Below are positions 8,133 to 62,266 of a stretch of 63,642 nucleotides of DNA, piece after piece. A program made the translations under genes and the position numbers. The notes below the pieces were generated by a model. It ran no database searches and was not told where the DNA came from. It worked only from the letters and a program-made list of their open reading frames with translations. How positions within the stretch are numbered: the stretch's first letter is position 1; each line of letters starts with the position of its first letter. Origin of the DNA: an uncultured SAR86 cluster bacterium (GTDB lineage: Bacteria > Pseudomonadota > Gammaproteobacteria > Magnimaribacterales > D2472); assembly GCA_902547295.1 (NCBI GenBank), contig CACCNJ010000007.1, positions 1-63,642 on the forward strand, written 5' to 3'.

Positions 8133-8543
8133 CTAATCTAATTTTTTAACGTGAAGCACGAGATTATGATCAACTAATTGATATCCAGCATCTTTAGCAA
8201 TAGAGTTTAACCTTTCAATTAATTCATTATCCTGAAACTCTAAAACCTTCCCAGATTCTACATCAACCATATGCTCATGATTTTCTTCTACTACTTCATA
8301 AACAGCATGACTGCCTTCAAAGTGATGTTTTTTAACTATTCCAGCAGTTTCGAACTGAGTAAGTACTCTGTATACAGAAGCAAGACCAATATTTTCACCT
8401 CTGTTTAGAAGTTCTTTATATATATCTTCAGCACTAAAATGTGCTTCTTCTTGAATAGCAGTAGATTCTAAGACTTCCATAATTTTTATTCTAGGCAATG
8501 TAGCCTTGAGACCTGCTTTTTTCAGTTCTTTTGTTTGGTTCAT
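8133..8543 (-). CDS. fur: Ferric uptake regulator Fur
   Basis: Fur is the Fe(II)-sensing repressor of iron uptake genes. Residues 1-85 form the winged helix, with the recognition segment NIGLASVYRVLTQF. The dimerisation domain has the metal-binding NHEH at about residues 88-91 and a terminal VLHV. At 136 residues it is typical. There is no CxxC after the His cluster, where E. coli Fur holds structural zinc (here MVDVESGKV), so it resembles the cysteine-poor Pseudomonas type. It is divergent from bamE. Confidence 0.93.
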   Translation of the reverse strand: MNQTKELKKAGLKATLPRIKIMEVLESTAIQEEAHFSAEDIYKELLNRGENIGLASVYRVLTQFETAGIVKKHHFEGSHAVYEVVEENHEHMVDVESGKVLEFQDNELIERLNSIAKDAGYQLVDHNLVLHVKKLD

Positions 8544-56974: not shown

Positions 56975-57027
56975 AAATGGCTTGAAAAATTGTATGATTA
57001 ATGTTCTAGTATGCTTCATATATAACC

Positions 57028-57291
57028 ATGAATAAAAAATATCTACTATATTCGTTCTTATTTGTAGCAAGTTTATCATTTCACAGCTTTGCGGATCATC
57101 ATGATCATTTCAGCTTTGAAGAAGAGCATTTGGCTGAATGCCAAGCTTGTGAAGAAAATGTTGAAATTAAAATTGCTTCAACAAAAAATAAAAGCAATTT
57201 TATCAAAGAATCCCCTGAAACAAATCTAATTAATAGATTTGTAAGTCAAAAACAAAAATCAAATCTATCAAGAGCTCCACCTTTAAATTAG
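57028..57291 (+). CDS. Small secreted His/Cys protein, possible metal chaperone
   Basis: An 87-aa protein with a clear signal peptide (about 1-22, cleavage after SFA). The mature N-terminus begins DHHDHFSFEEEH, followed by CQAC at residues 38-41. The rest is polar and ends SRAPPLN. The His cluster plus CxxC suggests binding of Zn or a similar metal. It ends 42 bases before the ZnuD-like receptor on the same strand, so the two are probably cotranscribed. I recall short periplasmic proteins with a terminal RAPP-type motif beside such receptors, but cannot name a family with certainty. Confidence 0.75.
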   Translation: MNKKYLLYSFLFVASLSFHSFADHHDHFSFEEEHLAECQACEENVEIKIASTKNKSNFIKESPETNLINRFVSQKQKSNLSRAPPLN

Positions 57292-57333
57292 TTAATTATT
57301 AATTTTTAACTAATTTTTCATAAAGGAGGAAAT

Positions 57334-59595
57334 ATGAAAAAATTTTTTAACGCAATTATTGTTTTAATTGCATTTCATTCGAACAGTTTAATATCGCAAG
57401 AAGTCGAAGAAACTGTCGTCGTTACGTCAGCATTAGTTGACACGTCAGAAATCACAAACCCTCTGTATGTTATAGACGGAGAAGATGTTACTGATGATGC
57501 AACAACTAGCTTAGGAGATGCCATAGATAGCTATCTTGGTGTTTCAATTGCTGATTACGGTGCTGCTGTAGGGCAGCCTATTATTAGAGGAATGTCTGGT
57601 CCTAGAGTAAAAATCCTTAAAAACGGTATGGTAAATCGTGATGTTTCAGGACTTGGAGTAGACCACCTTAATGATGTTGATTTAAACGATATTGGACAAA
57701 TAGAAATTGTTAAAGGTCCCTCTTCTTTACTTTATGCCAATGGAACAATTGGAGGAATTATAAATGTTGTCGATGACGTTATATCTCCAGTTGATTTTGA
57801 CACTAGAGAAATAAAAGTTGGGTATGAGGATCAATCTGTGAATGATGGAGATTCAAAGACTATCAATTATAGAAATAACATTGGTGGTTTTAATTTCAAT
57901 TTTGGTTATAAAGACACTGATTTTGGAAACTATGATATCCCTAATGGAGCAATAATTCATAGTGAAGAAGAGCATCATGATGAAGATGAGCACGAGGACG
58001 AGGATCACGGTGAAGAACATCATGATGAAGATATGGGATATGTAAATAATTCAGATTTTGCTGTTGAAGCAACAAAATTTGGTATCTCTAAAACAGGCGA
58101 TTGGGGTTATCTTGGTTTTTCATTTGATAACTTAGAAAGTCTTTATGGAATACCTTTTCATGGTGACGAACATGGAGATGAGCATGGAGATGAACACGGT
58201 GATGATCATGATGAAGATCATGATGAAGATCATGAGGACGAAGGTCATGATGAGCACGGAGAAGAAAGAATTTTCTCAACTACTGATTCAGAAACTTTTA
58301 ACATTAAAGGTTCATATAACTTAAATGGAACTTTAGTTAATTCAATTGATTTTAATTTCCGAAATTCTGATTACACACTTACAGAAGCTCATGAAGAGGA
58401 AGAAGGTCATGATGATCATGGTGATGAAGAAGAAGGTCATGCTCCAACAGTATTCGCAAATGAGGCAACCGAATATGGTGCATCTTTTGATGTGTCTAAT
58501 GAAAATCTGTCACAAAATGTTGTTGTAAATTTTGTTGATGAAGACAACTCAATTGTTGGTGAGGAGGCTTTTATGAATCCAGCCAACAGTGAAGAATTTA
58601 CAATTGGATATTATATGAGTAAAGACTTTGATTCATTTAATGTCGATATGGGAATGAGAATAGATCAAATTGAAAGATCAGGAAGTGTAACTGACGAAGA
58701 TCATGGTGATATAGATCAATATAGTATTGATGATACAACTAATAGCTTTGCAGTTAGCATTGGTACTGACATAACTGATAGCCTTAATATCAGCGCTGGC
58801 TTTGCAAGTGTTGAAAGATTGCCATCAGTTATAGAGCTATTTATGAATGGTCCTCATATGGCAACAGGAAGATTTGAAGTTGGTAATCCAAATTTGAATA
58901 GCGAAACCTCAGAGAACTTTGATATTAGCGTAAATTATCAAAACGACGGATTTTATGCAAATGCTAGCTTTTATATTACCGATGTTGATAACTATATAGC
59001 TCTTATCGACGAAGAAGAAGATCATCACATGGATGAAGATGAGCATCATGAGGATGAGGAAGATCATCATGAAGGTGAAGATGAGCATCATGATGAAGAT
59101 GATCATGATGAACATGAACATGGTCATGGAAATCTAATTCATGCTAATTATGTTCAAGAAGACGCTGAATTTGATGGTTATGAATTTGAATTTGGTAAAG
59201 CTTTTGAAATGAATTCGGGTGTATTAGATCTATCTTTTGGAAGAGATGTGGTAAATGCGGAATTTTCAGATGGACATTATGTTCCAAGAATCAATCCATC
59301 AAGAAATGTTTACTCAATGTCTTATAGTACGAATGACTTGATTTTCAAGCTACAACTAAAAGATGTTGATAAACAAAAAGAGATTGGTGAAGGCGAAACT
59401 GAAACTGATGCATACAAAATGTTAGATTTAAGAGTCACTAAAACATTTATTCTTGCTGATAATAGTGAATTGAAGATTTCACTCTTTGGAAGAAACCTTC
59501 TTGATGAGGTTGCAAGAAATCATTCTTCTTTTGTTAAAGATGAGGTTCCTCTGCCAGGTAAAAATGTTGGAGTTAAATTCAGTTTAACTTTCTAA
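57334..59595 (+). CDS. ZnuD-like TonB-dependent receptor with His/acidic loops
   Basis: A 753-aa outer-membrane receptor. Signal peptide about 1-21, TonB box EETVVVTSA, then a ZnuD-type plug: GQPIIRGMSGPRVKIL (about 81-96) and EIVKGPSSLLYANGTIGGIINV (about 128-149). A 22-strand barrel ends VGVKFSLTF. Four segments rich in His, Asp and Glu lie at about residues 210-234, 276-311, 351-369 and 559-599, probably in extracellular loops. ZnuD imports zinc or zinc-haem-type substrates, so zinc uptake is the likely role. A perfect AAGGAGG precedes the start, unlike neighbouring genes. Confidence 0.92.
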   Translation: MKKFFNAIIVLIAFHSNSLISQEVEETVVVTSALVDTSEITNPLYVIDGEDVTDDATTSLGDAIDSYLGVSIADYGAAVGQPIIRGMSGPRVKILKNGMVNRDVSGLGVDHLNDVDLNDIGQIEIVKGPSSLLYANGTIGGIINVVDDVISPVDFDTREIKVGYEDQSVNDGDSKTINYRNNIGGFNFNFGYKDTDFGNYDIPNGAIIHSEEEHHDEDEHEDEDHGEEHHDEDMGYVNNSDFAVEATKFGISKTGDWGYLGFSFDNLESLYGIPFHGDEHGDEHGDEHGDDHDEDHDEDHEDEGHDEHGEERIFSTTDSETFNIKGSYNLNGTLVNSIDFNFRNSDYTLTEAHEEEEGHDDHGDEEEGHAPTVFANEATEYGASFDVSNENLSQNVVVNFVDEDNSIVGEEAFMNPANSEEFTIGYYMSKDFDSFNVDMGMRIDQIERSGSVTDEDHGDIDQYSIDDTTNSFAVSIGTDITDSLNISAGFASVERLPSVIELFMNGPHMATGRFEVGNPNLNSETSENFDISVNYQNDGFYANASFYITDVDNYIALIDEEEDHHMDEDEHHEDEEDHHEGEDEHHDEDDHDEHEHGHGNLIHANYVQEDAEFDGYEFEFGKAFEMNSGVLDLSFGRDVVNAEFSDGHYVPRINPSRNVYSMSYSTNDLIFKLQLKDVDKQKEIGEGETETDAYKMLDLRVTKTFILADNSELKISLFGRNLLDEVARNHSSFVKDEVPLPGKNVGVKFSLTF
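58159..58266 (+). repeat. Tandem His/Asp/Glu/Gly codon repeats, second loop of the ZnuD-like receptor
   Basis: Imperfect units of about 9-12 bases (CATGGAGATGAG and CATGATGAAGAT types) encode HGDE and HDED repeats, residues 276-311. Repeats in frame like these can expand or contract without a frameshift. Confidence 0.8.
59008..59130 (+). repeat. Long His/acidic codon repeat, fourth loop of the ZnuD-like receptor
   Basis: Encodes about 41 residues (559-599) made almost only of Asp, Glu, His and Gly, from units such as GATGAGCATCATGAG. It is the longest of the four clusters. Confidence 0.8.
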
Positions 59596-59617
59596 TTAAT
59601 TTTTACATTAAAAATTT

Positions 59618-59647
59618 CACTGGCCCTTACTGGGCCAGTGTCTTTTT
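59618..59647 (+). terminator. Intrinsic terminator after the ZnuD-like receptor
   Basis: CACTGGCCC, loop TTACT, GGGCCAGTG and TCTTTTT: a perfect 9-bp GC-rich stem with a U-run, 23 bases after the stop codon. It separates the two TonB receptor genes into different transcripts. Confidence 0.92.
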
Positions 59648-59698: not shown

Positions 59699-62266
59699 AT
59701 GTTCAACAGAAAAGTATTTTTTTATCTAATATTTTTCTCTTTTTTTAGTTTTGCAGATGATTTTGAAGAAACAGTTATTACTGGTTCTTTAATAAAGAAT
59801 GCCGAGAATGATTTATCTCCGATTCAAGAAATTAAAGAAAGGGATCTAAAAAATTTCAATGTCACTAATATTGGTGAAATAAGTAAATATTTGAACGTAA
59901 GCTCAGGATCTAGATTTCAAACAAATGCACTTGAGGGAGTTGATCAGGGCATGTCATCAATTACCTTAAGAGGTTTGGATGCTTCCGCAACTTTATTACT
60001 ATTAAATTCTAGAAGACATACCTTTTCAGGAACACCATCAAATAACGGAAATGGTTATATTGATGCGAATATTGTTCCAGAAATTGCTATTGAAAAAATA
60101 GAAATTCTAAAAGAAGGTGCAACATCAATATATGGCTCAGATGCAATTGCTGGAGTTATTAATTTTCTTACATTTAGAGAATTTGAAGGATTCAGGGTTA
60201 AAGCCGGTAAACAAGCCACCACAAACTATAATCAAGATGATAATAGTTTTGGTATTTTATTTGGAACAAAAATCCTAGATGGAAAACTTGTAATTGGTTT
60301 CAATGCGCTTGAGAGATCTCCGTTATCTGCAAGTGAAATAGATGGGATTGCTGAATTGGGATTAAGTGGTCTTGGTAAAACCTTCAAGGTGCTTGGTCCG
60401 GACACTGTTTCATCTGGACTTTTTGCTGGAGTTTACCCAAAAGCAAGTCAATTTGTTCCAGATCCAAATTGTGAAGAAAATGGCGGCGTTCTTGATGGAA
60501 GTTTTTGTAGATTTTTATATGGAGAAAGGTTCAATATTGTAAATGATGAGGATCATCAAAAAATTTATTTGAATTTTTCAAAAGAAACGGAAGTTTTAAA
60601 ACATAATTTCCATTTCATATCATCTAAAGTTGATGTAAATGATAATCCTCAATCTCCTTCATATCCTGCTCTTCCTTTTTTATCAAGAAACATTGAGCCT
60701 GGTGAGGGAGGCAGCCCTTTCAATGTTCCGGTTATATGGTATGGCAGACCGCTTGGTTCAGAATTTAAGTCACCCTTCTCACCAAAAAACATCGAACAAT
60801 ATAATATTAATTACAATCTTTCCTTTTTAATCAATCAAACAACTGATGCCGAAATTTCAATAACAATTAGTGAGCACTCTAATGATCACTTTAGGCCTGA
60901 TATTATTGATTCAAAATTTCTTGCTGCAATAAAAGGAAATGGTGGTCCTGAGGGAAATCTTACTTGGAATATATTTGATTCAACTCAAAATCCAAAATCT
61001 CTTATTGATTATGTTAGAGGCGCAGAAGTTTCATCAAAAGTAGCTGACCTAATTTCTGTAGATGGAATATTTAATAGGAAATTAAAAAACCTTAATTTAG
61101 CTTATGGGTTTCAACTAAATAAAGAAAGTTTAGATATTTATTACGATGAAGTTAGTAGAGCTGAGTTTGATAAGGATGGAAAGTTAATAAAAACAGCTGA
61201 CCTTTTCTTTCTGGGTGGAGGAATTAATTTATCCAAATCAAGGACTAGCAATGCATTATTTGTAGAAATAGAAAAAAGTATTCAAGAGGCCTTAGATTTA
61301 AGAATCGCAGCAAGATATGAATCTATGAAGAATGAATCATCATTCGATCCAAAGATTTCGTTGAAATATAGAGTAGCTGATGCTCTTACAATAAGATTTT
61401 CTAAAGGAACTGCTTTTTCTGCGCCATCTATGGCACAAATGTACTCAAGTGAAATTAATCTTGGAAGTGTAAGAGACATTAATGATTCTGTTTTTGTAAG
61501 ACAAGCTTCAGCAGGTAATCCAAACTTGAAGCCAGCTACCTCAACAAATTCAAATATTGGACTAATATTTCAAAGAAATGATCTTAGAATTAGCTTGGAT
61601 GTTTGGGAAATAGAATATGAAGATAGAGTCGAGGTCGAAAGTGCTCAAGCAATATTATCTTCAAATCCATTTGGACCAAGTATTACAAGAAATGAATTTG
61701 GTGATCTTATAGGAGTTACAACTACCTACTTCAATGAAGATAATACTTTGGTAAAGGGGACTGATCTTCAAATTCAATATCTTATTAATTTGAAGCAAAG
61801 CGATCTGTCTATAAATTTGATGGGTACTAACTTATCTGACTTTAAAACTCCTAGCCTCACAAATCAAAACTTAATGATTAATCGTGTTGGAAAGTTTAAT
61901 TTTGATACTCATACTTTTTCTCTGCCAAAGAAAAGAATTAATTCCTTTGTAAGCTGGAACTTCAAAGACTTAAGCATAAGCTTAAACTCAAGATATTTGG
62001 ATGGATATATTAATGAAAGAGCCATTACCGGATTAGGACTAACTTATGGGTATTCCAATCAAGTTAAATCTTTCTTTGTTCATGATATATCACTCAACAA
62101 AAAGCTATTCGTTTCGAGTGGTCAACTTGATTTAAGAATATATCTTTCAAATATATTCGATAAATTAGCTCCAAGGTTATATGATGCACCTGATTTTAGT
62201 TTTGATACGAGATTGCATGATCCAAGGGGAAGAATTCTAGGATTAAATGTTGAGTATAATTTCTGA
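59699..62266 (+). CDS. TonB-dependent receptor, substrate unknown
   Basis: An 855-aa outer-membrane receptor. Signal peptide about 1-19, TonB box EETVITGSL, plug with SSITLRGLDASATLLLLNSRR and EKIEILKEGATSIYGSDAIAGVINF. A large barrel ends RILGLNVEYNF. Two cysteines about ten residues apart near 257-267 (PDPNC and GSFC) probably form a loop disulfide, as in related proteobacterial receptors. There is no His-rich loop. The substrate is not deducible. The stop TGA is in the same frame as the following nuclease gene, 21 bases away. Confidence 0.92.
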   Translation: MFNRKVFFYLIFFSFFSFADDFEETVITGSLIKNAENDLSPIQEIKERDLKNFNVTNIGEISKYLNVSSGSRFQTNALEGVDQGMSSITLRGLDASATLLLLNSRRHTFSGTPSNNGNGYIDANIVPEIAIEKIEILKEGATSIYGSDAIAGVINFLTFREFEGFRVKAGKQATTNYNQDDNSFGILFGTKILDGKLVIGFNALERSPLSASEIDGIAELGLSGLGKTFKVLGPDTVSSGLFAGVYPKASQFVPDPNCEENGGVLDGSFCRFLYGERFNIVNDEDHQKIYLNFSKETEVLKHNFHFISSKVDVNDNPQSPSYPALPFLSRNIEPGEGGSPFNVPVIWYGRPLGSEFKSPFSPKNIEQYNINYNLSFLINQTTDAEISITISEHSNDHFRPDIIDSKFLAAIKGNGGPEGNLTWNIFDSTQNPKSLIDYVRGAEVSSKVADLISVDGIFNRKLKNLNLAYGFQLNKESLDIYYDEVSRAEFDKDGKLIKTADLFFLGGGINLSKSRTSNALFVEIEKSIQEALDLRIAARYESMKNESSFDPKISLKYRVADALTIRFSKGTAFSAPSMAQMYSSEINLGSVRDINDSVFVRQASAGNPNLKPATSTNSNIGLIFQRNDLRISLDVWEIEYEDRVEVESAQAILSSNPFGPSITRNEFGDLIGVTTTYFNEDNTLVKGTDLQIQYLINLKQSDLSINLMGTNLSDFKTPSLTNQNLMINRVGKFNFDTHTFSLPKKRINSFVSWNFKDLSISLNSRYLDGYINERAITGLGLTYGYSNQVKSFFVHDISLNKKLFVSSGQLDLRIYLSNIFDKLAPRLYDAPDFSFDTRLHDPRGRILGLNVEYNF

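Follow-up and report, generated by a model that had tools for sequence, protein, structure and literature searches.

What is the function of a short open reading frame (ORF) that ends only 42 nt upstream of the gene for an outer-membrane metal receptor? The question is raised by a 63,642-nt stretch of DNA, contig CACCNJ010000007.1 of an uncultured SAR86 cluster bacterium (assembly GCA_902547295.1; the whole stretch is called the window below), in which an 87-residue ORF precedes the gene for a ZnuD-like TonB-dependent receptor. An original prediction, made from the letters alone, had located both ORFs, now confirmed at the same positions (Table 1), and proposed that the small His- and Cys-containing protein is secreted and hands metal over in the periplasm. 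Here, we argue that the answer probably lies elsewhere. It is likely, in our judgement, that the small ORF is a cis-acting, metal-sensing arrest upstream ORF (uORF) of the CruR/CutF kind that controls the receptor, with zinc as the most likely signal. The computations yielded five kinds of observation that bear on this proposal: co-occurrence of the two ORFs, a distinctive pattern of conservation, constant spacing within the uORF, a predicted RNA hairpin and partial matching of the hairpin arms.

Co-occurrence is strict. The receptor was searched for in 40 SAR86 genomes, source genome included, and found in 35; of the five without a match, four have a completeness of 66-85% and one of 93%. All 35 (at L075, the 35th, the receptor extends past the contig end) carry an ORF ending in RAPP 36-54 nt upstream of the receptor, across four families, with 1-4 further residues between RAPP and the C-terminus; the expectation that the small protein would stand beside the receptor in relatives is thus borne out. 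With the small protein as query, a sequence search detected relatives in no more than 21 of the 40 genomes, its own included, and a contig search gave 10 loci, all from the SAR86 cluster; the remaining counterparts, missed in this way, were seen because the DNA upstream of each receptor was read. Comparison of the uORF with Pfam and NCBIfam gave no match above any cut-off. Its C-terminus, SRAPPLN, on which the original prediction is silent, is the sole RAPP or RGPP end among the 434 window ORFs of at least 30 residues. Elsewhere such ends are rare, with 23 among 3469 distinct ORFs that do not precede a long ORF; of the 23, 18 prove to be these uORFs again, at loci without a recognised downstream receptor ORF of >500 residues, and the other 5 lie antisense to the receptor of another order. 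Short antisense ORFs with such an end, at L093, L096, L100, L106 and L107, probably reflect the complement of a conserved stretch. A scan of ten SAR86 genomes, restricted to AGA-coded Arg and a TAA stop, returned one extra RAPP end (L122, 29 residues), with no ORF of >100 residues within 400 nt.

Which parts of the small ORF are held constant? In a 24-row alignment, the only invariant columns are C38 and R82-A83-P84-P85. The mature part would begin with DHHDH and contains CQAC, where the original prediction had read HHDH and a CxxC; the CxxC motif is present in 33 of 35 SAR86 uORFs, the second Cys being missing at L052 and L053. The distance from Met to Cys ranges from 36 to 47 residues, and that from the first Cys to Arg is 44 residues in 27 and 45 in 7 of 34 cases, which leaves a constant spacer of 40-41 intervening residues between CxxC and RAPP. 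Mean identity within this spacer is 17% (55 equal-spacing pairs from 15 representatives), against 8% expected from composition. Ratios of nonsynonymous to synonymous differences (pN/pS) among 19 genus members, which are rough because synonymous differences approach saturation in some regions, are lowest in the Cys block (0.01) and rise through the RAPP end (0.18), the signal (0.31) and the His stretch (0.51) to the spacer (0.74). The sequence of the spacer thus drifts almost freely at a near-fixed length.

These features recall a small set of known arrest peptides. RAPP arrests ribosomes (PMC10951233, PMC12992588), and in CruR of Bordetella pertussis a toeprint was mapped to the two Pro codons (PMC12992588). 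CruR, a DUF2946 uORF, is the first gene before a TonB-dependent receptor and carries an export signal, a CxxC through which copper is sensed, an essential near-terminal RAPP and a spacer of 45 residues that tolerates only small changes in length (PMC9426467); all these elements have counterparts in the SAR86 uORF, and the requirement for CruR in cis (PMC9426467) is matched by the cis action proposed here. In contrast to CruR, however, the SAR86 uORF has a spacer of 40-41 residues, a His cluster before the Cys and a receptor closest to ZnuD, and its 42-nt intergenic region with a Shine-Dalgarno (SD) hairpin differs from the 162 nt and Rho termination of CruR. Membership in DUF2946 was ruled out by hidden Markov model, since PF11162 gave no match at E<=1 in the 40 SAR86 genomes and none among the 24 aligned uORFs. 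One DUF2946 member was found in 143 sampled gammaproteobacterial genomes (L120); it has a RAPP end, and a further ORF follows 69 nt later.

CutF of Rhodobacter capsulatus is likewise a short exported ORF with a metal motif and a C-terminal Pro motif, and acts via a stem-loop that shields the SD of the next gene (PMC9973294). The SAR86 uORF passes three of the filters used for CutF-like proteins in that report: it has 87 residues (limit, <150), a Pro pair at 84-85 within the last 15 residues, and a downstream gene on the same strand at 42 nt (limit, 1000 nt). Its hydrophobic N-terminus, judged by eye, is a putative signal peptide. Unlike CutF, it ends in RAPP and precedes an uptake receptor rather than an oxidase, and metal is proposed to release its stall, whereas copper strengthens that of CutF. 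A C-terminal RAPP, kept throughout the SAR86 counterparts, together with a localisation signal is also shared with ApdA/ApdP and the other RAPP/RGPP arrest peptides (PMC10951233, PMC12992588). RAPP/RGPP uORFs before TonB receptors have in fact already been reported as a class, treated as part of metal homeostasis with copper examples (PMC12992588); neither zinc nor SAR86 is mentioned in the main text of that paper, and the word zinc is likewise absent from the main texts of PMC9973294 and PMC10987492. Our literature search, which left supplementary lists (where these ORFs may appear) and most subscription papers outside its scope, found no paper linking such a uORF with zinc, ZnuD or SAR86. 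Taken together, the SAR86 element is best called a CruR/CutF-type arrest uORF.

How could a stall at the end of the uORF be communicated to the receptor gene? In the window, the last uORF codons, CUCCACCUUUAAAUUAGUUAA, are predicted to pair with the SD side of the receptor (minimum free energy (MFE) -15.4, z -2.6), a hairpin likewise absent from the original prediction. In 31 of the 35 SAR86 genomes, the final codons of the uORF are the predicted partner of the SD (probability 0.47-1.00). Over the 35 genomes, the mean cost of opening the SD falls from 6.5 kcal/mol in the whole stretch to 2.3 when the footprint of a stalled ribosome is removed, the drop exceeding 1 in 31 of them. For comparison, the 42 window ORFs (receptor included) have a mean opening cost of 2.05 kcal/mol, and three reach the 4.9 kcal/mol of the receptor itself. 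When hairpin arms were swapped between 12 groups, native combinations beat foreign ones (5e-5 for opening cost, 0/20000 for MFE); three of these groups were drawn within the genus by stem type after the sequences had been seen. Support is weaker with cruder groups: with the genus as one group, 82 (opening) and 11 (MFE) of 20000 permutations were as good, and with the four families the native pairing was the best possible (799/20000, about 1 in 24).

Could such a hairpin simply be a by-product of Pro codons next to a strong SD, in a gene pair that is merely translationally coupled? That three window ORFs reach the same opening cost speaks for this explanation, as does the finding that this cost is not raised over intergenic shuffles (mean z 0.2), because CCNCC Pro-Pro codons pair with GGAGG regardless. 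Whole-hairpin stability, however, exceeds that of the shuffles on average (mean MFE z -2.2 over the 35 genomes) and the arms match within lineages; moreover, at L044, L045 and L075 the SD partner has moved to Ser and stop codons, and there 0 of 60 shuffles reach the native opening cost. We therefore consider a mere by-product improbable.

The same evidence bears on the view that the small protein is a secreted metal chaperone whose His/Cys head passes metal to or from the receptor. This view accounts for the signal-like N-terminus, DHHDH, CxxC and the constant neighbourhood with the receptor. Yet half of the mature part is the near-free spacer of conserved length, the RAPP close to the C-terminus, second only to the Cys in conservation, would serve no evident purpose in a chaperone, and the predicted hairpin links the last codons of the small ORF with the SD of the receptor; among known relatives, CruR peptides went undetected (PMC9426467) and exported CutF is quickly degraded (PMC9973294). 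One invariant Cys and RAPP, a free spacer of fixed length, an arrest end and an SD hairpin together make up the anatomy of a regulatory uORF, so that the periplasmic hand-over interpretation of the original prediction is probably wrong and a chaperone of any such kind very unlikely.

From these features we infer arrest, metal binding, the direction of the switch and the identity of the metal for the SAR86 arrest uORF, which might work as follows. The ribosome would translate the export signal, the His/Cys site, the near-free spacer of fixed length and RAPP, 1-4 codons before the stop. At low metal it would stall at RAPP, its footprint covering the codons otherwise paired with the SD and thereby allowing translation of the receptor. 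Once the His/Cys site has bound metal, folding or capture of the emerging chain could pull the arrest loose; the ribosome would then leave, the hairpin close and the receptor be shut off. At that stage the His/Cys site should lie about 46 residues from the P-site at the peptidyl-transferase centre, just beyond the exit tunnel, and sensing is therefore expected in the cytosol, at the surface of the ribosome, which is also the proposal for CruR (PMC9426467); for CutF, a periplasmic location was proposed (PMC9973294). A precedent for release by a metal comes from a zinc finger that frees SecM arrest by folding in the tunnel only when zinc is present (PMC4571824). Might the arrest report export capacity rather than metal, as in the secretion monitors SecM and ApdP? 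An export signal combined with a C-terminal RAPP-like motif is indeed the layout of Sec/YidC monitors, and SecM also has a hairpin over an SD. The downstream gene, however, encodes a metal receptor and no Sec or YidC part, and such a monitor would not need the Cys block that is kept at a pN/pS of 0.01; a secretion monitor is the least probable of the readings considered here.

Which metal would be sensed? The receptor has clear Plug and barrel domains in Pfam, and its best NCBIfam model is ZnuD (E 3.9e-60, 204 bits); as the 950-bit cut-off of that model (NF038289) is not reached, it is classed as ZnuD-like only. The closest solved structure is ZnuD of Neisseria meningitidis (4rdr), both for the single sequence (E 4.4e-33) and for a profile of 14 SAR86 receptors (E 1.7e-57, the sole match at 1e-20). 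In ZnuD, crystallographic zinc sites are formed by D90/H100/E340/H499 and H241/H243/D246/E347, and two His, one from the plug and one from outer loop 6, clamp the zinc (PMC4557270). In the alignment, H111 and H508 of the receptor, both invariant in the 14 SAR86 receptors, correspond to H100 and H499 (an offset of 14 between the numbering of the paper and that of the chain was deduced from loop 3), and E340 falls in a stretch without alignment. Besides plug, barrel and these His, a His/acidic loop 3 is shared with ZnuD, which upholds the ZnuD likeness originally predicted; unlike ZnuD, with its two clusters in loop 3 (PMC4557270), the SAR86 receptor appears to have four His/acidic loops.

The four His/acidic segments, located exactly as in the original prediction (Table 1), hold 31 of the 39 His within 121 of the 753 residues, and a sliding-window scan of the receptor with a threshold of our own gave exactly four segments (205-237, 274-314, 348-371 and 557-603). 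The earlier remark that so much His is unusual even for ZnuD is broadly fair, but the trait is not unique: the median His count is 36 (10-47) among 33 other distinct SAR86 receptors, mostly with four or five segments (29/33; range 0-5), whereas it is 20.5 (13-44) among 30 ZnuD-like receptors of other Gammaproteobacteria, mostly with none to two (28/30; range 0-5). Long loops of barrels of the TonB-receptor type point outward. The start of segment 2 coincides by alignment with outer loop 3 of ZnuD, in keeping with the surface capture predicted earlier; for segments 1, 3 and 4, weak support comes from the strand order of a poor AlphaFold2 model built from 11 close sequences (pLDDT 51, pTM 0.43), in which they fall between long strands on one and the same side. 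All four segments would then be extracellular, and zinc is a plausible substrate of the receptor.

Further clues come from other Gammaproteobacteria. A class-wide sample of 274 genomes contained 14 ZnuD-like places outside SAR86, six of which have a RAPP/RGPP uORF carrying His and Cys. The order of genome G293 has such uORFs at 16 of 19 ZnuD-like places (15 of 18 genomes with a match); all 16 have a Cys whose distance to the downstream Arg is exactly 47 residues, and CxxC is absent in 14, where a single Cys follows the His residues. Overall, 20 of 30 distinct ZnuD-like places outside SAR86 have the uORF, and 17 of the 20 uORF-receptor gaps exceed 60 nt. Upstream regions were also scanned for sites with <=3 mismatches to TGTTATANTATAACA, which we take to be the Zur-box consensus, provided that <=10 of 200 mononucleotide shuffles did as well. 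Zur-box-like sites of this kind precede 8 of the 20 units with a uORF and 6 of the 10 without; the former are not independent because all eight belong to the order of G293. These eight keep a score of 0/200 shuffles in a wider region. Two further places, L107 and L108, where 10 and 16 of 200 shuffles were as good, have the core GTTA-N5-TAAC, common to many proteobacterial Zur sites (PMC4176598). In the order of G293, the Zur-box-like sites therefore link the uORF-receptor unit to zinc.

Zinc thus seems the likelier sensed metal, because RAPP/RGPP uORFs precede ZnuD-like receptors elsewhere and 8 of 20 have a Zur-box-like site. The same arrest uORF might instead sense copper, perhaps also the cargo of the receptor, as in CruR-CrtA. 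CxxC occurs in 33 of the 35 SAR86 uORFs, CruR and most Cys-bearing CutF-like proteins adjoin copper genes (PMC9426467, PMC9973294), no Zur-box-like site was found in the 33 regions scanned upstream of SAR86 uORFs, and neither ZnuA nor ZIP was found in the ten SAR86 genomes tested. Set against copper are ZnuD as the closest solved structure with the His matching H100 and H499 retained, the second Cys missing at L052, L053 and 14 of 16 uORF places in the order of G293, and the Zur-box-like sites of that order; we regard copper as a serious contender but an unlikely one. Each of the ten SAR86 genomes has exactly one Fur-family match, and only that of the window was typed with NCBIfam (Table 1). 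On the premise that no Zur, ZnuA or ZIP was found in the SAR86 genomes tested, we tentatively suggest, as something that may well be but that we would not assert, that a His/Cys zinc site at a constant distance from RAPP folds at the tunnel exit and frees the stall, that this arrest peptide came to exert the zinc control of the SAR86 receptor, and that its Pro-Pro codons double as an anti-Shine-Dalgarno.

Several points weigh against a zinc-sensing arrest uORF with an SD latch. All support for it is computational. The SD-uORF pairing is absent at L052, L053, L068 and L069, the opening cost is matched by shuffles, hairpin stability shows no excess in 7 of 35 genomes (L049, L052, L053, L055, L067, L068 and L069; z >= -0.5), and in 3 of 10 lineages the average foreign arm outperforms the native one by either measure. 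Outside SAR86, receptor SDs are weak and can be assigned only with some uncertainty; as assigned, they reach a pairing of >=0.5 with the uORF end at no more than 6 of 20 places (L079, L080, L085, L086, L099 and L106). The latch is therefore not general, and Rho-type or other mechanisms may operate there. A model zinc finger pulls best on a tether of 24-26 residues (PMC4571824), and the uORF Cys is more distant than that. CxxC is also the motif with which CruR senses copper, and, with neither ZnuA nor ZIP found in the ten genomes, what becomes of zinc once it has crossed the outer membrane is not accounted for. At L052 and L053, both the second Cys and the SD hairpin are missing, a pattern that would suit a switch in decay or one that operates in another way.

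The features of the locus are collected in Table 1, including the terminator of the original prediction, which a scan recovered. Beyond it, a second TonB-dependent receptor follows at 59699-62266 (+), and an ORF of 855-870 residues likewise follows in 7 of 10 loci (L057-L066). On the 5' side of the uORF, a TTGAAA...TAGTAT block at 56982-57012 recurs in the genus with a spacing of 16-19 nt; it is absent from the list returned by a promoter scan and is a possible promoter at most.

Table 1. Features of the uORF-receptor locus and the Fur-family gene, in window coordinates
Feature	Position	Strand	Basis
87-aa putative metal-sensing arrest uORF (hydrophobic export signal, His/Cys site, spacer, RAPP)	57028..57291	+	ORF and RAPP-ended counterparts
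Putative export-signal codons, hydrophobic N-terminus, aa 1-22	57028..57093	+	judged by eye; pN/pS 0.31
Putative metal site codons DHHDHFSFEEEHLAECQAC, aa 23-41	57094..57150	+	C38 invariance, CxxC 33/35, Cys-block pN/pS 0.01
RAPP arrest-motif codons, aa 82-85	57271..57282	+	R, A, P, P invariant in 24/24 rows; 35/35 genomes
Predicted RNA hairpin, last uORF codons with receptor Shine-Dalgarno	57276..57330	+	folding
Receptor Shine-Dalgarno AGGAGG	57324..57329	+	sequence
ZnuD-like TonB-dependent receptor, 753 aa	57334..59595	+	Pfam, NCBIfam, PDB matches
His/acidic segment 1, aa 210-234, putative extracellular loop	57961..58035	+	
His/acidic segment 2, aa 276-311; its start matches metal-sensing loop 3 of ZnuD by alignment	58159..58266	+	
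His/acidic segment 3, aa 351-369, putative extracellular loop	58384..58440	+	
His/acidic segment 4, aa 559-599, putative extracellular loop	59008..59130	+	
Terminator-like hairpin closing the two-gene unit	59618..59640	+	scan: 9-pair stem, 7 G-C pairs, T tail
Sole Fur-family match of the source genome (77% complete)	8133-8543	-	NCBIfam Fur, 143.1 bits, cut-off 146

What would be the significance of such a switch? In the literature searched, metal-sensing arrest uORFs have been worked out for copper only, and nickel or cobalt was suggested for His-only relatives (PMC9973294). If the proposal is true, a uORF family at ZnuD-like receptors of Gammaproteobacteria, some with Zur boxes and some lacking them, would widen metal sensing by nascent chains to include zinc. 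The natural series of uORFs, which combine a spacer of near-neutral sequence with a rigid length, offers a test of whether folding of a metal site releases arrest by force. For SAR86, the proposal would explain how metal uptake could be controlled in a streamlined marine lineage in which no Zur was found.

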